Assembly: GCF_947495665.1 (NCBI RefSeq)
Contig: NZ_CANLZV010000005.1
Coordinates: 124,001-188,000 of the forward strand
DNA: 64,000 nt
From: an uncultured Sunxiuqinia sp.
Lineage (GTDB): Bacteria; Bacteroidota; Bacteroidia; Bacteroidales; Prolixibacteraceae
Direction of reading: 5' to 3'
How positions within the stretch are numbered: the first letter of the stretch is position 1; each line of letters begins with the position of its first letter. Below the pieces are notes generated by a model. The model had not been told where the DNA came from, ran no database searches, and worked only from the letters and a program-made list of their open reading frames with translations. Shown here one piece after another: positions 21,988 to 35,332 of the stretch. Made by a program: the position numbers and the translations under genes.

Positions 21988-23061
21988 ATGAAATTGAAAT
22001 TTTCACTTTTACTGCTGTCGGTATCGCTTTTTGTTGCTTTTATTTCTTGTTCCAATTCTCCCAAGAGGTCCAGAAAACCTGTCGCAAAAATCAGCCTTCA
22101 TCCTCAAAAAAACCGCTATGAATTTGGGGACTCCATTTCAATTTCAATCCGAGTAAAAAACAGCGATGGCCAAATCAAAGATTCAAAACTATATGTGGAC
22201 AATAAGTTGATTCAAACCAGTGATGAGCTGGAGTTTAACTTTGCTGTTGGCCGGCTTAATGAGCTCGGTAAACACAGCATCAAGCTGTTGGCCACTAAAA
22301 CAGATGGGGTAGAAGGTATTACTTTTCAGTCATTTGAAGTGGTTTCGGATTTAAAACCGGCCAATTACGGCTACGAAGTGGTCAACACGTACCCACACAA
22401 TACCGAACACTTCACCCAGGGTCTCGAAATTCACAACAACGAATTCTATGAAAGTACAGGAGAATACGGAAAATCGGGCATTTTCAAATTTGACCTGAAT
22501 TCCGGATCTGTTTTGAAATCATTCAAGATGGAAGACCAGTATTTTGGTGAAGGGATCACCATTTTTGACCAGAAAATTTACCAGCTGACCTACAAAGCAC
22601 AAAAAGGCTTTGTCTATGATCTGAACACTTTTGCCCGTATTGATTCATTTACTTTCAGCACGCCCGAAGGCTGGGGGTTGGCACACGACGGTACGCATTT
22701 AATTAAAACCGACGGGTCCGAATTCTTACATTTTATTGACCCGGAAACCTACGAGGAAGTCAAAAAGCTTCAGGTTTATGACGACCGCGGGCCGGTAAAA
22801 TATTTGAACGAACTGGAATACTACCAAGGCGAACTTTATGCCAACATTTACACCACCAACTATGCGGTAAAGATTGATCCAAACACAGGAAAAGTGCTGG
22901 GCCATATCAATTTTGAAGGCTTGCTTTCGGTGCTTTATAATCCGGATAAACCCATTGACGTTTTAAACGGTATTGCCATTCATCCCGACAACGGAAAGAT
23001 GTACATCACTGGAAAACTTTGGCCCCATTTATACGAGGTCAAACTGATTAAAAAAGACTAG
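21988..23061 (+). CDS. Glutaminyl-peptide cyclotransferase (glutamine cyclotransferase) lipoprotein
   Basis: 357 residues. A lipobox (FVAFISC, Cys about 21) anchors it to a membrane. Residues 30-115 look like an Ig-type domain. Residues 120-355 match the bacterial glutamine cyclotransferase beta-propeller: [63 protein letters not shown]. It converts N-terminal glutamine to pyroglutamate, a common final step on secreted Bacteroidetes proteins after signal cleavage. Its last 14 bases overlap the convergent ruvB gene. Confidence 0.9.
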
Positions 23062-24076
23062 GTGTTTGTCCGCCGTTGTAATTAATTCTTCCCAAGTGCT
23101 TGTAGGCCCGGTCGGTTACTTCACGTCCGCGGGGTGTACGCTTGATAAAACCTTCCTTGATTAAAAAGGGCTCGTACACCTCTTCAATGGTTCCTGAATC
23201 TTCACCAACAGCCGTTGAAATGGTAGAAATTCCCACAGGTCCTCCATTGAATTTATCAATGATGGTCGATAGAATTTTATTGTCCATTTCATCCAAACCG
23301 TGCTGATCAATATTGAGTGCTTCGAGTGAAAACCGCGTAATCTCCAAATCAATTTTGCCATTGCCTTTCACCTGGGCAAAGTCACGTACGCGTCGAAGCA
23401 GCGCATTTACAATTCGAGGTGTTCCACGGCTTCTGGAAGCAATTTCCAGGGCCGCCTGGTCTTTGATCTCCACATTCAGAATTTTCGCTGAACGCTTCAC
23501 AATTCCGGTCAGAATACTCAGATCGTAGTATTCGAAATGAGCATTGATTCCAAAACGTGCCCGCAGCGGACTGGTCAATAAACCCGACCGGGTAGTTGCT
23601 CCAACCAAGGTGAACGGATTTAACTCCAATTGAATTGAACGTGCACTGGGGCCTTTGTCGATCAAAATATCAATTTTATAGTCCTCCATAGCCGAATACA
23701 AATATTCTTCCACTATGGGGCTTAAACGATGGATCTCGTCGATGAAAAGCACATCGCTTGGCTCAAGGTTGGTTAACAAGCCGGCTAAATCACCGGGTTT
23801 ATCCAAAACTGGACCGGAGGTTAACTTCAAACTTACGCCCAATTCATTTGCAATAATATTCGACAAGGTGGTTTTTCCGAGCCCCGGTGGTCCATGCAAT
23901 AAAACATGATCCAAAGCTTCACCACGCATTTTGGCAGCCTGTACAAAAACTTTCAGGTTTTCGACAATCTGCTTTTGCCCTTTGAAATCATCAAAAGAAA
24001 GTGGACGCAATTGCTTGTCCAAATCCACATCTCTCTCGGAAAAAGATTCATCGTGAAGATCGATTTGATCTGTCAT
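23048..24076 (-). CDS. ruvB: Holliday junction branch migration helicase RuvB
   Basis: 342 residues. Walker [10 protein letters not shown], Walker [10 protein letters not shown], sensor 1 [18 protein letters not shown] with the arginine finger, and the C-terminal winged helix ([17 protein letters not shown]) are all in place. RuvB drives branch migration of Holliday junctions together with RuvA and the resolvase RuvC, neither of which is in this window. The C-terminus overlaps the convergent cyclotransferase gene by 14 bases. Confidence 0.97.
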
Positions 24077-24139: not shown

Positions 24140-24529
24140 TTATTTTACGATTTCCAGCTCTTCAAAGATCTGTTTCAATTTATCAATATCAAAAGGTTTG
24201 GCCATAAACTCATCCATGCCATAAGAGAGACATTTATCCCGATCATTGTCCATGGTATTTGCCGTAAGTGCAATAATGGGGGTTCTCAAGTTCTGTGGAT
24301 TTTGATTTTCGATTTCCCGTATTTTCACAGTAGCCTCTAAACCATCCATTTCGGGCATCATTATATCCATTAAAATAACATCGTACTGGGCTTCCTGAAA
24401 GCGTTCCAGGGCTTCTAAACCATTGTTCGCAATCGTAACATCGTGGTTGAATTTCTTCAAACTAAATGTTACAATCCTTTGATTCAGCACATTATCTTCT
24501 ACCAGCAATATTGAAAGTTTGTCCTCCAT
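24140..24529 (-). CDS. Single-domain response regulator (CheY-like receiver)
   Basis: 129 residues, a receiver domain only. The acidic pair is in LLVEDNVLNQRIV, the phospho-acceptor Asp is in VILMDIMMPEMDG, Thr is in IIALTANTMD and Lys in FMAKPFDIDKL. The LVEDN-x-x-NQ start is the type found in the receiver part of hybrid histidine kinases, so it probably takes phosphate from a kinase encoded elsewhere. With no output domain it would act by protein contact or phosphorelay. It borders the candidate origin. Confidence 0.92.
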   Translation of the reverse strand: MEDKLSILLVEDNVLNQRIVTFSLKKFNHDVTIANNGLEALERFQEAQYDVILMDIMMPEMDGLEATVKIREIENQNPQNLRTPIIALTANTMDNDRDKCLSYGMDEFMAKPFDIDKLKQIFEELEIVK

Positions 24530-25054
24530 TCACACATACATTTAAGCACTGTAAAGTTAATCCTTTAAACAGTGAAAAGGAAACCCTCTTTTTTCAAAAA
24601 ATTGAATTCAACACCTAATTATTATTTATAAGTTTTAATAAAAATTAAAAATGGATATTATAATAGCCTGTTGATTTCATGTATAAAAATTTGCTCTGTT
24701 TTTTGTTTTACTGGAGAATCTGATGTTATTGGGCAGTTATTAACCGAATATGAACAGGGCTTATTTCTGAAAATAAATTGAATGGCGATGAAATCAACAT
24801 CTGTTAATATCTCTTGTTTTTGATTACTTTTTGTGGTTTTTTAACGGTGAGATATGTTAATAGCTGTTGATATCTTCATGGTGATTTTTAAAAACTTATG
24901 TTTGTTATTCCAAGATTAAATTACTAGGCAGAATCGGAAACCAAATTTTAAAATTTAATTTTGGATATTTATTTGTGTCGAATTAACAGGAAATACGGAG
25001 ATATTAACATTTTTGTAAAGTTGCAAAATACTTTAAAATAGAGAGATAAGATAT
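24530..25054. other. Candidate chromosomal replication origin (oriC)
   Basis: A 525-bp gene-free gap between divergent genes. The left part (about 24598-24665) is almost pure A/T and could be the unwinding element. To its right lie eight copies of a 9-mer close to the DnaA box, of form TGTTRATnn: 24669-24677 (+), 24737-24745 (-, GGTTAATAA), 24791-24799 (-), 24802-24810 (+), 24855-24863 (+), 24865-24873 (+), 24980-24988 (-) and 25001-25009 (-). Each differs from TGTGGATAA at two or more positions. Gene direction splits here: minus to the left as far as 12.5 kb, plus to the right as far as 33.5 kb. Two parS-like sites follow within 11 kb. Confidence 0.55.
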
Positions 25055-28000
25055 ATGACTGAGGGATATAAACACCTTGTTGATAAACTGGAATTATACA
25101 TTAGAAAGCACAGTTTTTATGCGTTTTTAAGGGGAATTATCGTGTCTACTCTGCTACTGCTTAGTTACCTGGTGATTGTTTTATTGATCGAGCATTTTAG
25201 CTATTTGGGGTCGTTTTACCGCAGTTTGCTCTTTTATTTCTCTGTTCTGTTTTTTGCTGGAGTCGTCATTTTTTATTTCGTAAGGCCATTTTTTAACTTG
25301 CTTGGCCTAACAAAAAGCATGTCGTATAAAAAGGCGGCAGAAATTATTTCTGATCATTTTCCGGAAATCGAGGATCAGATTATAAACATAATTGAACTCT
25401 CAAAGATCGATCAGGAAAGCCATCAGGAATTGGTATGGGCAAGCATCGATAAGAAAATTGAACAGCTTAAGATTTTCAATTTTTCAGAAGCCGTTTCTTA
25501 TCGAAAATTACGAGGAAGTTTGGGAATGCTTCTTCTTTTAGTTTGTTTTTCGTTTTTATTAGCGATGACATTTCCAGGTTTGTTTTCTAACACTGGAAAA
25601 CGATTATTGGCTTACAAGGAATCGTTTCAAAAACCAGCACCTTTTACTTTCGAAATTTTGAATGATAGTTTGAAGGTGAAAAAAGGGACGGGGTTAAAAC
25701 TTCAAGTGAAATGTGATGGAAGCAAGATTCCGGATCTTCTCTATATTAATATAGCTGGTTCAAATTTCCTGATGACAAAAAAGGACACTCTTTTTAGTTA
25801 TTCACTCGAACATCTCAACAATAGCTTTGGCATCTATTTTACCAATCTCGAATATCGGTCGTCGAATTACCAGGTTGAAGTTTTACCGTCACCGGCTATT
25901 TTGGAATACTCGGTTGAAATAAAACCGCCCGCTTATACCGGTTATGAGTCAAAACAACAAAGTATGCTGGGGGATTTGGAAGTTCCTTTTGGATCGAAGA
26001 TCAAATGGGTATTTAAAACGATGGATACCGATTCACTGTTTTTTGCAGTTAATGGAGTGCCTATAATTGTTAATCCGGATTCGAAAACGTTTACTGTAGA
26101 ATATATGGCCAAGGAAAATGTGGATTATACGGTATCGATCAAAAACAGCTATTTTGATTATCGCGATTTACTAAGGTTTCGCTTGGATGTGATTCCGGAT
26201 TTATACCCCAAAATTGATGTAGCTCAGTTACGCGATTCGGTTACTTATACCCGTTTTTACTTTAAAGGAAGTATTGCAGATGACTATGGCTTTCATGACC
26301 TGAATTATCATTTAATGATCAAACAGCAGGATAGCTTGATTGCATTGCCGCTATTGAAGAATCTTCATGAACAGGATTTTTACTTCACCTTCGATTTTAA
26401 AGAGTTGGTTGGGTTGACTGATCGCGTTGATTATTATTTTTCAGTGCGCGATAACGATTATTTTCATTCCTATAAAGAAGCGGTTTCCGAAACGTTCCAA
26501 TTTGTTTTTCCTTCTTTGGAGGAATTGGATCAGTTAGATGATCAGAATTTTCAGGATTTGGAGCTTTTAATGGAGGAGAGTTTTGAGTTGACGCATGATA
26601 TTCAGCAGGCCATTGATGAGTTGAAATTTAAAAGCCGGAGCGAAAATTCCTCGGATTGGGAAAAGCAGCAATTGGTTACCGAAATTCTGAACAAGAAAAA
26701 GCAGCTGGAGGAAATTTTGAACCAGGTTCAGAAGCAGAATGCCGAAATGAATGCCCTCAAAAATTCGTTTTCTGAAGAAAAAGCAGCCTTGGTTGAAAAA
26801 CAAAGGCAGATTGAAGAATTGCTCGATGATGTTTTTGACGAGGAATTGAAGAAGCTTTTTGATGAGTTTAATGAGTTGGCTAAGGAGTTTGATCAAGCCA
26901 AATTTGATGAATTGTCGCGTCGTTCGGAAATGTCCATGACAGATTTGGAAAACCAATTGGAGCGAAATCTTCAAATGCTAAAACGGATGAAAGTGGAGCA
27001 GGAACTGGAAGAGCTTGTTGATGTATTAAAAGTACTTGGTGAAGAAGAAAAGCAAATTGCCTACGAACTGGACGAACATCGAAACTTTGATGAGACCAAT
27101 TCGAAAGAAATCGAGAATCAAAATAAATTGAAGGATATTCAGAATGATTTGAAAAATGCTTTGGAGCTTAATCAGACCCTTGAGCAGCCGATGAATTTGC
27201 AATCGCTGGACAAGGAGTTTGAGGAAATTAATTCGACTTACGATGGAGTAGGGGAGAGCCTTCAAAACAAACGGAAGCGAAAAGCTGTTGAGCAAATTCA
27301 GCACAATGCCGAAAACTATGACAATGCTTCCTTCATTTTGGATCAGATGATGGCCATGAATATGCAGCAACAGCAAATGGAAAATATGCGGGATTTGCAG
27401 CAAATTTTGGATAACTTGATATATCTTTCATTAAATCAAGAGGCCTTGTATGATGAAATCCGTCTGCTTGATCAGAACGATCCGCGCCTAAATCAGGTTC
27501 GACTGGAGCAGGATCATCTAATAAAGCAAAGCCAGGTTGTGAAGGATTCCTTGTTTGCCGTTGCCAAACGAACACCGGCCATCGCCAATGTAGTTACCAA
27601 GGAGCTTTTTAAATTAGAGTTGGCCATGGACAAGGCTTTGGACGAACTGGAGGAAAGCCGGCTGCATGCTTCCTTGAATCAGCAGCAATATGCCATAACT
27701 TCGGCCAATAACATGGCTCTGTTTTTGAATGAAGCCCTGGATAATTTGCAAAAGCAAATGGCTTATGCCATGCCGGGCGATCAGCAATGCGACAAGCCGG
27801 GATCTGATTCTAGTGAAACCATGAATCTTTTAAAGCAAGCCCAGCAAGGCATGAAAGAACAGTTGCAGCAAATGATTGATCAACTGAAATCGGGTCAATC
27901 AGGGAAGGGGAGTGAACAGATTGGAAAAACGCTTGCTCAACAAGAGATGATGCAGCAAATGATTCGTGAATTGCTCATGAATTCAGAAGTTGGAAGTGCT

Positions 28001-28336
28001 GCTGAGGAGCAGCTTAAACAAATCAACCAGTTGTTGGAGCAAAACGTGGCGGATTTGGCTCACAAGAACTTAACGAGTGAAATGATTAGCAGACAGCAAT
28101 TAATTCTTAATAAATTATTAAAGGCTGAAAAGGCTGAAATGGAGAGAGATGTAGATGATCAGCGGGATTCTAAAACTGCCGAGGATAAATTTTACAGTAA
28201 CCCAATTGAATTTTTTGAGTATAAAAAGCATGAAAAACAATTGGAGGAAGTTATTGAAAGAAATAACTATCAGTTGCGGAAATTCTATGATCGGAAATAT
28301 AGGGAGTATATCAATAATCTAAGAAAGGAAAATTGA
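25055..28336 (+). CDS. DUF4175 family large membrane protein
   Basis: 1093 residues. Three predicted membrane spans occur at about 24-46, 52-78 and 160-182. Residues 195-480 are strand-rich, likely extracytoplasmic Ig-like modules. From about 490 to the end the protein is charged and Gln/Glu/Leu-rich, with long coiled-coil helices (for example LEEILNQVQKQNAEMNALK). This fits DUF4175, a Bacteroidetes family of about 1100 residues with no assigned function. The stop codon overlaps the TTG start of the RsbW-like gene, so the two are translationally coupled, and the set DUF4175-RsbW-ybeY-mnmG looks like one operon. An envelope-sensing or scaffold role is only a guess. Confidence 0.85.
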   Translation: MTEGYKHLVDKLELYIRKHSFYAFLRGIIVSTLLLLSYLVIVLLIEHFSYLGSFYRSLLFYFSVLFFAGVVIFYFVRPFFNLLGLTKSMSYKKAAEIISDHFPEIEDQIINIIELSKIDQESHQELVWASIDKKIEQLKIFNFSEAVSYRKLRGSLGMLLLLVCFSFLLAMTFPGLFSNTGKRLLAYKESFQKPAPFTFEILNDSLKVKKGTGLKLQVKCDGSKIPDLLYINIAGSNFLMTKKDTLFSYSLEHLNNSFGIYFTNLEYRSSNYQVEVLPSPAILEYSVEIKPPAYTGYESKQQSMLGDLEVPFGSKIKWVFKTMDTDSLFFAVNGVPIIVNPDSKTFTVEYMAKENVDYTVSIKNSYFDYRDLLRFRLDVIPDLYPKIDVAQLRDSVTYTRFYFKGSIADDYGFHDLNYHLMIKQQDSLIALPLLKNLHEQDFYFTFDFKELVGLTDRVDYYFSVRDNDYFHSYKEAVSETFQFVFPSLEELDQLDDQNFQDLELLMEESFELTHDIQQAIDELKFKSRSENSSDWEKQQLVTEILNKKKQLEEILNQVQKQNAEMNALKNSFSEEKAALVEKQRQIEELLDDVFDEELKKLFDEFNELAKEFDQAKFDELSRRSEMSMTDLENQLERNLQMLKRMKVEQELEELVDVLKVLGEEEKQIAYELDEHRNFDETNSKEIENQNKLKDIQNDLKNALELNQTLEQPMNLQSLDKEFEEINSTYDGVGESLQNKRKRKAVEQIQHNAENYDNASFILDQMMAMNMQQQQMENMRDLQQILDNLIYLSLNQEALYDEIRLLDQNDPRLNQVRLEQDHLIKQSQVVKDSLFAVAKRTPAIANVVTKELFKLELAMDKALDELEESRLHASLNQQQYAITSANNMALFLNEALDNLQKQMAYAMPGDQQCDKPGSDSSETMNLLKQAQQGMKEQLQQMIDQLKSGQSGKGSEQIGKTLAQQEMMQQMIRELLMNSEVGSAAEEQLKQINQLLEQNVADLAHKNLTSEMISRQQLILNKLLKAEKAEMERDVDDQRDSKTAEDKFYSNPIEFFEYKKHEKQLEEVIERNNYQLRKFYDRKYREYINNLRKEN

Positions 28337-29168: not shown

Positions 29169-29176
29169 TAATTTTG
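29169..29176 (+). promoter_or_regulatory. -7 promoter element of mnmG (TAATTTTG)
   Basis: Perfect TAnnTTTG, 16 bases before the ATG at 29192. It covers an in-frame TTG at 29174, which therefore cannot serve as the start of transcripts made from here. Confidence 0.45.
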
Positions 29177-29191
29177 CCATCTAAATTTTTT

Positions 29192-31072
29192 ATGATGTTA
29201 CCTATTTATGATGTAATTGTCGTGGGAGGGGGGCATGCCGGTTGTGAAGCAGCCGTGGCAGCAGCCAATTTGGGGTCGAAAACCTTACTCATAACCATGG
29301 ATATGGGCAAATATGCTCAAATGTCTTGCAATCCGGCGATCGGTGGAATTGCCAAGGGACAGATTGTACGCGAAATTGATGCTTTGGGTGGATATACCGG
29401 CATTATTGCTGATCGATCGTCTATTCAGTTCCGCATGTTAAATCGCTCCAAGGGACCTGCTATGTGGAGTCCTCGGGTTCAGAGTGACCGCTTTCGCTTT
29501 TCGGAATACTGGCGAACGGTTTTGGAGAATACCGACAATCTGGATTTGTGGCAGGATGCGGTCATTCATTTGCTCCTTAAAAATGGCAAAGTGAAGGGAG
29601 TTAAAACAAGAATTGGAGTCGAATTTGAATCCAAAACCGTCATTCTTACCAATGGTACTTTCTTGAATGGATTGATGCATATTGGCCAATCCAAGATGGA
29701 AGGGGGTAGGATAGGGGAGTCGGCTTCTTATTTTATCAGTGATCAATTAGCAGAAGCTGGCTTTAAAACTGGTCGTTTGAAGACCGGAACTCCGGTCCGG
29801 ATTGATGGACGTTCTATTGATTTTTCGAAATTAACGGAGCAAAAGGGCGATGAAGGACATTATAAATTTTCCTATTTACCCGATGTGAAAAGCGAATTGA
29901 AGGGGAGGAGTTGCTGGATTACCTATACTTCTCCTGAAGTTCATGCAGCCTTGGAGGAAGGTTTTGAGGAATCTCCCATGTACGATGGAACGATTCAGAG
30001 TGCGGGTCCTCGTTATTGCCCCAGTATTGAATCAAAATTGGTAACATTTGCCGAGAAAAAGCAACACCAGTTATTCCTGGAGCCGGAAGGCGAAACGACG
30101 AATGAATATTATCTGAATGGCTTCTCAAGTTCCCTACCATGGCAGGTTCAGTATAAAGCTATGCGCCTGGTTCCTGGCTTGGAAAATGCCAAAATTTACC
30201 GTCCGGGTTATGCCATTGAATACGACTATTTCGATCCAACACAGCTTTACCACACGTTAGAAACAAAGCATATCCGCAACCTTTATTTCGGTGGACAGAT
30301 CAACGGAACGACCGGTTATGAGGAGGCAGCTGCGCAAGGTATTATTTGTGGTATTAATGCCCATTTAAAAGCCCATAATCAGGACGAATTTACTTTGGGT
30401 AGGGATGAGGCTTATATTGGTGTTTTAATCGATGATTTGGTCACGAAAGGTGTAGATGAGCCTTACCGGATGTTTACTTCGCGTGCCGAGTATCGTATTT
30501 TATTGCGCCAGGATGATGCCGATGTACGGTTAACGCCAAAGTCTTTTGAGCTTGGATTGGCCTCTCAGGAACGAATGGATTTACTGGAGGAAAAGTTAAA
30601 ATTGCGTGATCAAATTATTGAATTTGTTAGCAATTTTTCGATCAAGCCGCAATTTATAAATGCCGTTTTAGAAGCTAAAAATACTTCTCCGTTGAAACAA
30701 GGAGTAAAGCTAAAAGATGTTATTTCTCGTCCTCAAATTTCTATTTTTGATGTCATCGAACCGGTTACACCTTTTAAACGAATGTTGGAGATTGTACCTA
30801 AAAATCGCTTTGAAGAGATTGTAGAATCGGCCGAAATTTTGATCAAATATGCTGGCTATATAGAGCGTGAAAAATTGATGGCGGACAAGTTTAAGCGGCT
30901 TGAGAATATCAATATTGAAGGTAAGTTTGACTACGAAAAAATCCATACTATTTCCACCGAAGCGCGGCAAAAACTAACGCGCATTCAACCCAAAACAATC
31001 GGGCAGGCCAGCCGTATTTCGGGAGTTAATCCTTCCGATATAAACGTGCTTTTAGTGATGTTAGGACGCTAA
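29192..31072 (+). CDS. mnmG: tRNA uridine-5-carboxymethylaminomethyl modification enzyme MnmG (GidA)
   Basis: 626 residues from the ATG at 29192 (MMLPIYDVIVVGGGHAG). The FAD-binding motif GGGHAGCEAA is near the N-terminus. Family blocks include SCNPAIGGIAKG, RMLNRSKGPAMWSPR, ETDGLYFGGQ-like NLYFGGQINGTTGYEEAAAQG and a C-terminal domain ending SGVNPSDINVLLVMLGR. With MnmE it modifies the wobble uridine (U34) of certain tRNAs. mnmG is often close to oriC in bacteria. A perfect parS palindrome starts one base after its stop codon. Confidence 0.97.
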   Translation: MMLPIYDVIVVGGGHAGCEAAVAAANLGSKTLLITMDMGKYAQMSCNPAIGGIAKGQIVREIDALGGYTGIIADRSSIQFRMLNRSKGPAMWSPRVQSDRFRFSEYWRTVLENTDNLDLWQDAVIHLLLKNGKVKGVKTRIGVEFESKTVILTNGTFLNGLMHIGQSKMEGGRIGESASYFISDQLAEAGFKTGRLKTGTPVRIDGRSIDFSKLTEQKGDEGHYKFSYLPDVKSELKGRSCWITYTSPEVHAALEEGFEESPMYDGTIQSAGPRYCPSIESKLVTFAEKKQHQLFLEPEGETTNEYYLNGFSSSLPWQVQYKAMRLVPGLENAKIYRPGYAIEYDYFDPTQLYHTLETKHIRNLYFGGQINGTTGYEEAAAQGIICGINAHLKAHNQDEFTLGRDEAYIGVLIDDLVTKGVDEPYRMFTSRAEYRILLRQDDADVRLTPKSFELGLASQERMDLLEEKLKLRDQIIEFVSNFSIKPQFINAVLEAKNTSPLKQGVKLKDVISRPQISIFDVIEPVTPFKRMLEIVPKNRFEEIVESAEILIKYAGYIEREKLMADKFKRLENINIEGKFDYEKIHTISTEARQKLTRIQPKTIGQASRISGVNPSDINVLLVMLGR

Positions 31073-31088
31073 TGTTCCACGTGGAACA
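31073..31088. promoter_or_regulatory. parS: parS (ParB-binding) site
   Basis: TGTTCCACGTGGAACA, a perfect 16-base palindrome that fits the bacterial parS consensus TGTTnCACGTGnAACA at every fixed position. It starts immediately after the mnmG stop and ends 17 bases before apt. parS sites load ParB for chromosome segregation and cluster around oriC. No parA or parB lies in this window. Confidence 0.88.
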
Positions 31089-35316: not shown

Positions 35317-35332
35317 TGTTCCACGTGAAAAA
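35317..35332. promoter_or_regulatory. parS: Second parS-like site, one mismatch
   Basis: TGTTCCACGTGAAAAA matches TGTTnCACGTGnAACA except for A instead of C at position 15. The left arm and the core CACGTG are intact. It begins 7 bases after the xth stop, 4.2 kb from the perfect site. Confidence 0.6.

Follow-up and report, generated by a model that had tools for sequence, protein, structure and literature searches.

Here we describe an intergenic gap in the chromosome of a marine, Sunxiuqinia-like bacterium that, judged by sequence comparison, is very probably the chromosomal origin of replication, oriC. The gap lies in a window of 64,000 bp (contig C5, positions 124001–188000) of a genome of 4.73 Mb in 70 contigs. 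Sunxiuqinia is placed in the Prolixibacteraceae, Marinilabiliales, and close named relatives are Sunxiuqinia species (among the best 80 of 474 relatives). An earlier note on this DNA had read the gap as an origin, and both the switch in GC skew at this place and the conservation of short repeated boxes within it support that reading. The features are collected in Table 1; all positions are those of the window unless stated otherwise.

Table 1. Features of the proposed origin and its surroundings
Feature	Position	Strand	Evidence or remark
ruvB	23048..24076	-	NF000868, 505 bits
Receiver gene (single-domain response regulator), left neighbour	24140..24529	-	PF00072, E=5.8e-28
Intergenic gap, proposed oriC	24530..25054	.	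Clustered boxes, skew minimum, conservation, parS near
AT-rich unwinding region (proposed DUE)	24586..24665	.	Duplex stability; skew minimum inside, 24615
DnaA-trio-like element	24651..24668	-	GC-rich 3-mer 24666-24668 and phased triplets 24665-24651
Box TGTTGAT, adjoins triplet element	24669..24675	+	AAATCAACA on minus strand; 6/7 columns invariant in six aligned relatives
Box TGTTGAT	24793..24799	-	Motif search, conservation
Box TGTTAAT, divergent pair with 24793 box	24802..24808	+	Motif search, conservation
Box TGTTAAT	24855..24861	+	Not conserved in aligned relatives
Box TGTTGAT	24865..24871	+	Motif search, conservation
Box TGTTAAT	24982..24988	-	Motif search, conservation
Box TGTTAAT	25003..25009	-	Invariant in six aligned relatives
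1093-aa ORF, right neighbour	25055..28336	+	Relatives in 37/61 genomes
Box TGTTGAT, within start of next ORF	25078..25084	+	Motif search, conservation
mnmG/gidA	29174..31072	+	TIGR00136, 815 bits
parS, perfect palindrome TGTTCCACGTGGAACA	31073..31088	.	0 mismatches
parS-like site	35317..35332	.	One mismatch

A strand switch, a weak duplex and parS sites

Genes had been said to run away from the gap on both sides. With short overlapping ORFs taken as non-genes, this holds on the right, where all genes are on the plus strand to 33461, and on the left, where they are on the minus strand to 12543 with the exception of one plus-strand ORF (21988–23061). The right neighbour was earlier called DUF4175; neither Pfam nor NCBIfam gives a match to this 1093-aa ORF at E≤0.001. 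Farther right lies mnmG/gidA, which often stands close to bacterial origins. The receiver gene stands at the very edge of the proposed origin and, together with ruvB, also lies to the left of the boxes in Marinifilum and Ancylomarina; a link between this gene and the control of initiation is possible.

The stretch 24598–24665, previously called almost pure A/T, is AT-rich (88% A/T) but contains 8 G or C in 68 positions. The 80-bp stretch 24586–24665 is the second least stable of its length on the 316-kb contig and provides the easily melted AT-rich region looked for in an oriC. The cumulative GC-skew minimum of the contig, summed over this contig alone, falls inside the AT-rich block. In 12-kb bins, 11/12 are negative to the left of the site and 13/14 positive to the right. 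The skew check proposed with the original reading was extended to two single-contig relatives, G035 and Draconibacterium orientale (CP007451), sampled in 20 stretches each, and a minimum or switch was found at the gap in all three. D. orientale has a local switch at 1,929,361 (the minimum of the surrounding 40 kb), 242 bp before the orthologue of the 1093-aa gene, with seven boxes in the 2-kb bin of the switch; its samples are negative in 10/10 cases before the site and positive in 9/10 after it. The local switch of G035, at 2,396,565 (the minimum of the surrounding 38 kb), lies 244 bp before the orthologous gene; the samples of this genome are noisy, with 6/10 negative (four positive) to the left of the switch stretch and 8/9 positive (one negative) to the right. 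A switch between leading and lagging strand is thus seen on C5 and in both relatives.

Genes change direction at the gap, which contributes to local skew, and the switch could in principle result from an inversion, or from strongly expressed genes changing strand, with the true origin elsewhere. We consider this highly improbable: with few exceptions the bins on C5 and the samples of D. orientale keep their sign on either side of the site, and both parS and the box cluster coincide with the switch independently.

The two parS sites in Table 1 lie 6 and 11 kb away from the proposed origin. The whole draft genome has no other site of one mismatch or fewer, which bears out the earlier statement that parS lies near the gap. 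Within the window alone, the two matches found at up to three mismatches are not beyond chance (34/100 shuffles reach that number); it is the perfect site and the placing in the whole genome that are telling. Eight whole genomes contain 13 distinct parS sites of no more than one mismatch. All 13 share a contig with the proposed origin; ten are no farther than 23 kb from it, and the other three are 27, 40 and 74 kb away. Counted from the triplet element (described below) or the leftmost box, the distances are 6 and 11 kb in the genome studied here, 6 and 23 kb in G004, 6 and 14 kb in both G035 and D. orientale, 8 kb in G017, 10 kb in G032, 27 and 40 kb in Marinifilum and 74 kb in Ancylomarina. 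G035, D. orientale, G017 and G032 are single-contig assemblies, and there the search covered the whole chromosome. A parS site 6–10 kb from the proposed origin is present in 6/8 of the compared genomes; in the window, the site at 31073–31088 directly follows the stop codon of mnmG and precedes the apt gene. According to the part of PMC10197239 available, parS near the origin is a rule used together with skew, and backed by coverage, in gut species.

As had been noted, the gene dnaA is not adjacent; a contig other than that of the window carries it, C3 instead of C5. Neighbourhood to dnaA/dnaN is likewise missing in the two single-contig relatives, where dnaA lies about 2 Mb away (at 347 kb in G035; D. 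orientale is numbered from dnaA, about 1.9 Mb from the proposed origin). Because oriC is commonly far from dnaA in Bacteroidetes (PMC4755523, accessible part), adjacency to dnaA is not a defining property of oriC in this group.

A conserved box that follows the strand switch

The gap contains seven copies of TGTTRAT, on both strands and exactly 341 bp from end to end. Eight copies had been counted within that span; the span and the two strands stand, and the count in the gap is seven, the eighth copy lying 23 bp into the next ORF and extending the set to 416 bp. In 3000 dinucleotide shuffles of the gap, the mean number of TGTTRAT was 0.51 and the maximum four (0/3000 reached seven), and the runner-up cluster on the 316-kb contig has three copies per 425 bp. 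The canonical box TGTGNAWAA does not occur in the gap (24530–25054). The consensus of the boxes is (Y)TGTTRATWW, or TTATYAACA on the other strand, to be compared with TTATCCACA in E. coli, from which it differs at two core positions; the gap has a cluster of DnaA boxes only if this variant form is counted as one.

Throughout the genus and in much of the family, the positions of the 9-mer cores hardly vary, which answers in the affirmative the conservation check set out earlier. Relative to the start of the right-hand gene, boxes of the genus and nearer relatives are at about −375, −251/−242, −190, −73, −52 and +23; more distant genera have fewer of them. When the window was aligned with six relatives, identity was 88% in box columns and 56% in other columns. 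We also counted all 7-mers in 44 orthologous gaps, consisting of the window and 43 of 79 named loci (drawn from the best 80 of 474 relatives of the right-hand gene) chosen for a skew switch or a family-like gap; the remaining 36 had no switch or an incomplete upstream sequence. The two most over-represented 7-mers relative to shuffles were TGTTGAT (65 observed, 5.8 expected) and TGTTAAT (116 observed, 20.1 expected).

The flanking genes are divergently transcribed and the sites are on both strands, as would also be expected if the gap were only a divergent promoter and TGTTRAT a transcription-factor site serving the receiver gene or the 1093-aa gene. The named loci separate the two readings. 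Seventy-four of the 79 entered the switch totals, the other five being truncated, and 71 of these could be scored (three were unscorable): at least three boxes lie upstream of the right-hand gene in 33/40 loci with a skew switch versus 2/31 without (Fisher P = 5e-11, which is not a true probability as the loci are related). The boxes go with the skew switch rather than with the 1093-aa gene. This is also apparent where the gene and the switch are apart. In Marinifilum D714, six boxes in 500 bp from 121742, the densest cluster of the 60 kb examined, coincide with the skew minimum at 121782, and the gene is about 34 kb off. Ancylomarina euxinus has nine boxes from 22247, the densest of its stretch, 2 kb from the minimum at 24295 and with the gene 68 kb off. 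In both, ruvB and the receiver gene are still the left neighbours of the boxes. In G032, four boxes from 3151869 are 1.1 kb from the minimum at 3150776 and 3.5–4 kb from the gene; an equal cluster of four at 3145362 ties for densest. These three genomes, the scarcity of clusters at the gene in distant families lacking a switch, and the skew minimum, parS sites and weak duplex, which a regulator would leave unexplained, make a mere promoter a very improbable account of the gap.

Several observations delimit the distribution of the boxes. G065 has neither switch nor cluster in the 60 kb examined. G197, from another order, has a weak skew minimum with no TGTTRAT cluster, and the motif is therefore not shown for the whole phylum. 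In G128 (L269), an order-level relative, four TGTTRAT in 500 bp lie about 1.3–2.0 kb before ruvB and may mark another origin; G122 has three boxes in 500 bp upstream of ruvB. The order receiver–ruvB, sought in 119 genomes at the level of the order and 119 at that of the class (58 best-matching loci), was seen in the genome studied here and in G007 of the family; ruvB was misplaced in part of the loci by the longest-ORF step, so that misses in this search are not firm. In G032, ruvB is kept and an ORF for an IS1595-type transposase (L243, C1:3150854–3151750) lies between it and the boxes, at the place of the receiver gene. The pair pattern TGTTRATN{0,30}TGTTRAT proved too noisy as a genome-wide origin finder. 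Contig C1 of G017 carries a dispersed repeat containing TGTTAATAATAATAGGCCGTATTGTTGAT, with 17 exact copies among the matches listed, plus variants.

A triplet element beside the leftmost box

Read on the minus strand past the leftmost box, the sequence continues with GGC, then TAT TAT AAT ATC CAT, and then AT-rich DNA. The pattern in the family starts with a single box or a tandem pair (spacing about 10 bp), continues with a GC-rich 3-mer and ends in triplets whose A and T recur at every third position. When this pattern was made into a template, it scored at least 3 in 42/44 gaps, in all 42 on the same strand and at −365 to −445, a count that is partly circular as 34 of these 44 loci had served to build the template. 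Flanks and shuffles served as controls: four flanking controls gave 0, 0, 4 and 3 of 42–44, and shuffled gaps a mean of 2.8 and a maximum of 5. Outside the 44 gaps, the template scores 4 in Marinifilum, 5 in Ancylomarina and 4 in G032, in each case no more than about 2 kb from the skew minimum; neither these three nor the places found by motif (see below) had been used in building it, the sequences of the first two being known before scoring.

A whole-genome search of 61 genomes for AACAGSMTATNATNAT returned 45 matches (in 31 genomes), versus 8 for the reversed control. Eight of the 45 are at the known site beside the 1093-aa gene, and 20 of the other 37 were examined. A full ATYAACA box precedes 5/20 of the examined places, and the same five are the most AT-rich (73–84%). 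In three of these five (G017, G036 and G058) the skew minimum of the stretch is 30–33 bp from the element; in the other two (G038 and G046), where skew is weak, the distances are 4.2 and 3.6 kb. Among the other 15 places (53–70% A/T; this split was made after the data had been seen), G050 has a weak minimum 577 bp off and the rest have none within 4.5 kb. In G017, whose skew samples are irregular, it was the motif search that found the place, at 3,993,453. A longer pattern of the element was too strict (4/61 genomes).

The arrangement resembles the basal unwinding system with its DnaA-trio, described in the accessible parts of PMC8287927 and PMC7561715: according to the former, one or two tandem boxes are followed by a GC-rich spacer, a 3-bp phased repeat and an AT-rich stretch. 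A box, a short GC-rich spacer and at least three NAN triplets are present in the window (spacer GGC, run of three). Runs of at least three NAN triplets occur at 23/34 leftmost boxes versus 90/212 other boxes (44/1000 shuffles reach 23); being common at other boxes, they separate the leftmost boxes poorly. The triplets differ from the published trio in being NAT-like: a strict 3′-[G/A]A[T/A]-5′ repeat of more than three is absent from the window, where only two consecutive triplets conform, and a strict run of at least three is found in 2/34 loci.

DnaA, known origins and a proposed course of initiation

Of 23 DnaA matches, 21 had their C-termini compared, the remaining two being short additional copies. 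All 21 have Lys and Ala at the positions taken as E. coli 432 and 435, where E. coli has Arg and Thr, and Ala or Ser at the position taken as 423. Base contacts of DnaA are at 399, 423, 432–435 and 438–439 (PMC5043019, accessible part). According to the same part of that paper, residue 432 is Lys, and residue 435 in some cases Ala, in DnaA of Epsilon- and Deltaproteobacteria, and because these residues are shared, we put forward only as a hypothesis that they account for the change of box.

The box differs from that of E. coli at two core positions, and a receiver gene stands directly to the left of the boxes, here as well as in Marinifilum and Ancylomarina. Both would fit an origin whose 7-mers are read by another protein, such as a second initiator or a regulator in the receiver pathway. 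We regard such a reader as improbable. The length and asymmetry of the boxes, their occurrence in both orientations and the tandem 10-bp spacing match the published box/trio architecture, as does the junction with the GC-rich 3-mer and triplets. The 9-mer TTATTAACA has been put forward as a DnaA box in Mycoplasma hominis (PMC2751442, accessible part), and DnaA domain IV departs from E. coli at three base-contact positions. DnaA is the probable reader of the boxes.

Boxes were also looked for in the 214–352 bp upstream of the dnaA frame (1068 bp in the genome studied here) in 17 genomes, and only G032 and G015 have one each; these upstream regions give no support to autoregulation of dnaA through boxes. 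Downstream of dnaA, in L081 and its kin, the leader between a UPF0029-family gene and an aspartate/ornithine-carbamoyltransferase gene contains one or two TGTTRATWA, a run rich in T and, ahead of a T tract, a repeat that resembles a stem. This leader looks like a pyrimidine attenuator.

The proposed origin shares with E. coli-type origins (Ori-Finder/DoriC predictions) a cluster of boxes, an AT-rich unwinding region, a skew minimum, parS and a nearby mnmG/gidA. It differs in that dnaA is unlinked, the core is TTATYAACA instead of TTATCCACA and the canonical box is absent from the gap. That oriC is unlinked from dnaA is already known for Bacteroidetes. In the accessible parts of PMC4755523, PMC8994065 and PMC10197239, origins far from dnaA are likewise at a skew transition, and in the gut species of the last a parS cluster marks the origin. 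By contrast, the predictions for Prevotella intermedia (PMC4755523) and Elizabethkingia (PMC8994065) use the E. coli box, a single mismatch being the most allowed, and those for gut species (PMC10197239) were called by skew and parS; the same parts of the three papers give no lineage-specific consensus or triplet element. The Mollicute boxes TTATTAACA of M. hominis, M. arthritidis and M. mobile (PMC2751442, accessible part) have the identical 9-mer form but belong to an unrelated lineage, lie upstream of dnaA and number one or two copies; TTATCAACA is discussed for a phytoplasma (PMC3322544, accessible part). The four box 9-mers, searched as words in the literature, returned no Bacteroidota work by title, and neither a TTATYAACA consensus nor a triplet element for Bacteroidota was recognised in the accessible parts of the literature, with subscription journals and the DoriC tables lying outside these. 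Three features look new here: the box form TTATYAACA, the changed residues at base-contact positions of DnaA, and the triplet element.

We propose the following course of initiation. DnaA would bind TTATYAACA-type boxes (TGTTRATWW on the other strand) and, from the leftmost box at 24669, form a filament that crosses the GC-rich 3-mer and reaches the phased A/T triplets, which would act as DnaA-trios. The filament would open the AT-rich stretch 24586–24665 in the leftward direction; the helicase would then be loaded and forks would depart both ways. The boxes to the right of 24669 may assemble and regulate the complex, and ParB on the parS sites 6 and 11 kb off would separate the new origins.

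More broadly, and to this we give a little less than even weight, a large part of the Bacteroidales/Marinilabiliales may have an origin syntax of its own. A DnaA that carries Ala435, Lys432 and Ala or Ser423 would read TTATYAACA instead of the E. coli box, beside a conserved opener of a GC-rich 3-mer and NAT triplets that, in several genomes, would mark the initiation point to within tens of bases. The box and the protein that reads it would have changed in concert.

Records numbered from dnaA, such as that of D. orientale, would have their zero point mid-replichore in this group. Such origins can escape software that searches for the E. coli box unless told otherwise; Ori-Finder 2022 uses that box by default and lets users choose or define others (PMC10225481, accessible part). 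The origin, the box and the triplet element offer targets for oriC plasmids, for estimates of replication rate from metagenomes and for tests of how DnaA specificity evolves, and would bring in a further lineage whose conserved unwinding element is trio-like and falls outside the strict consensus in the literature.
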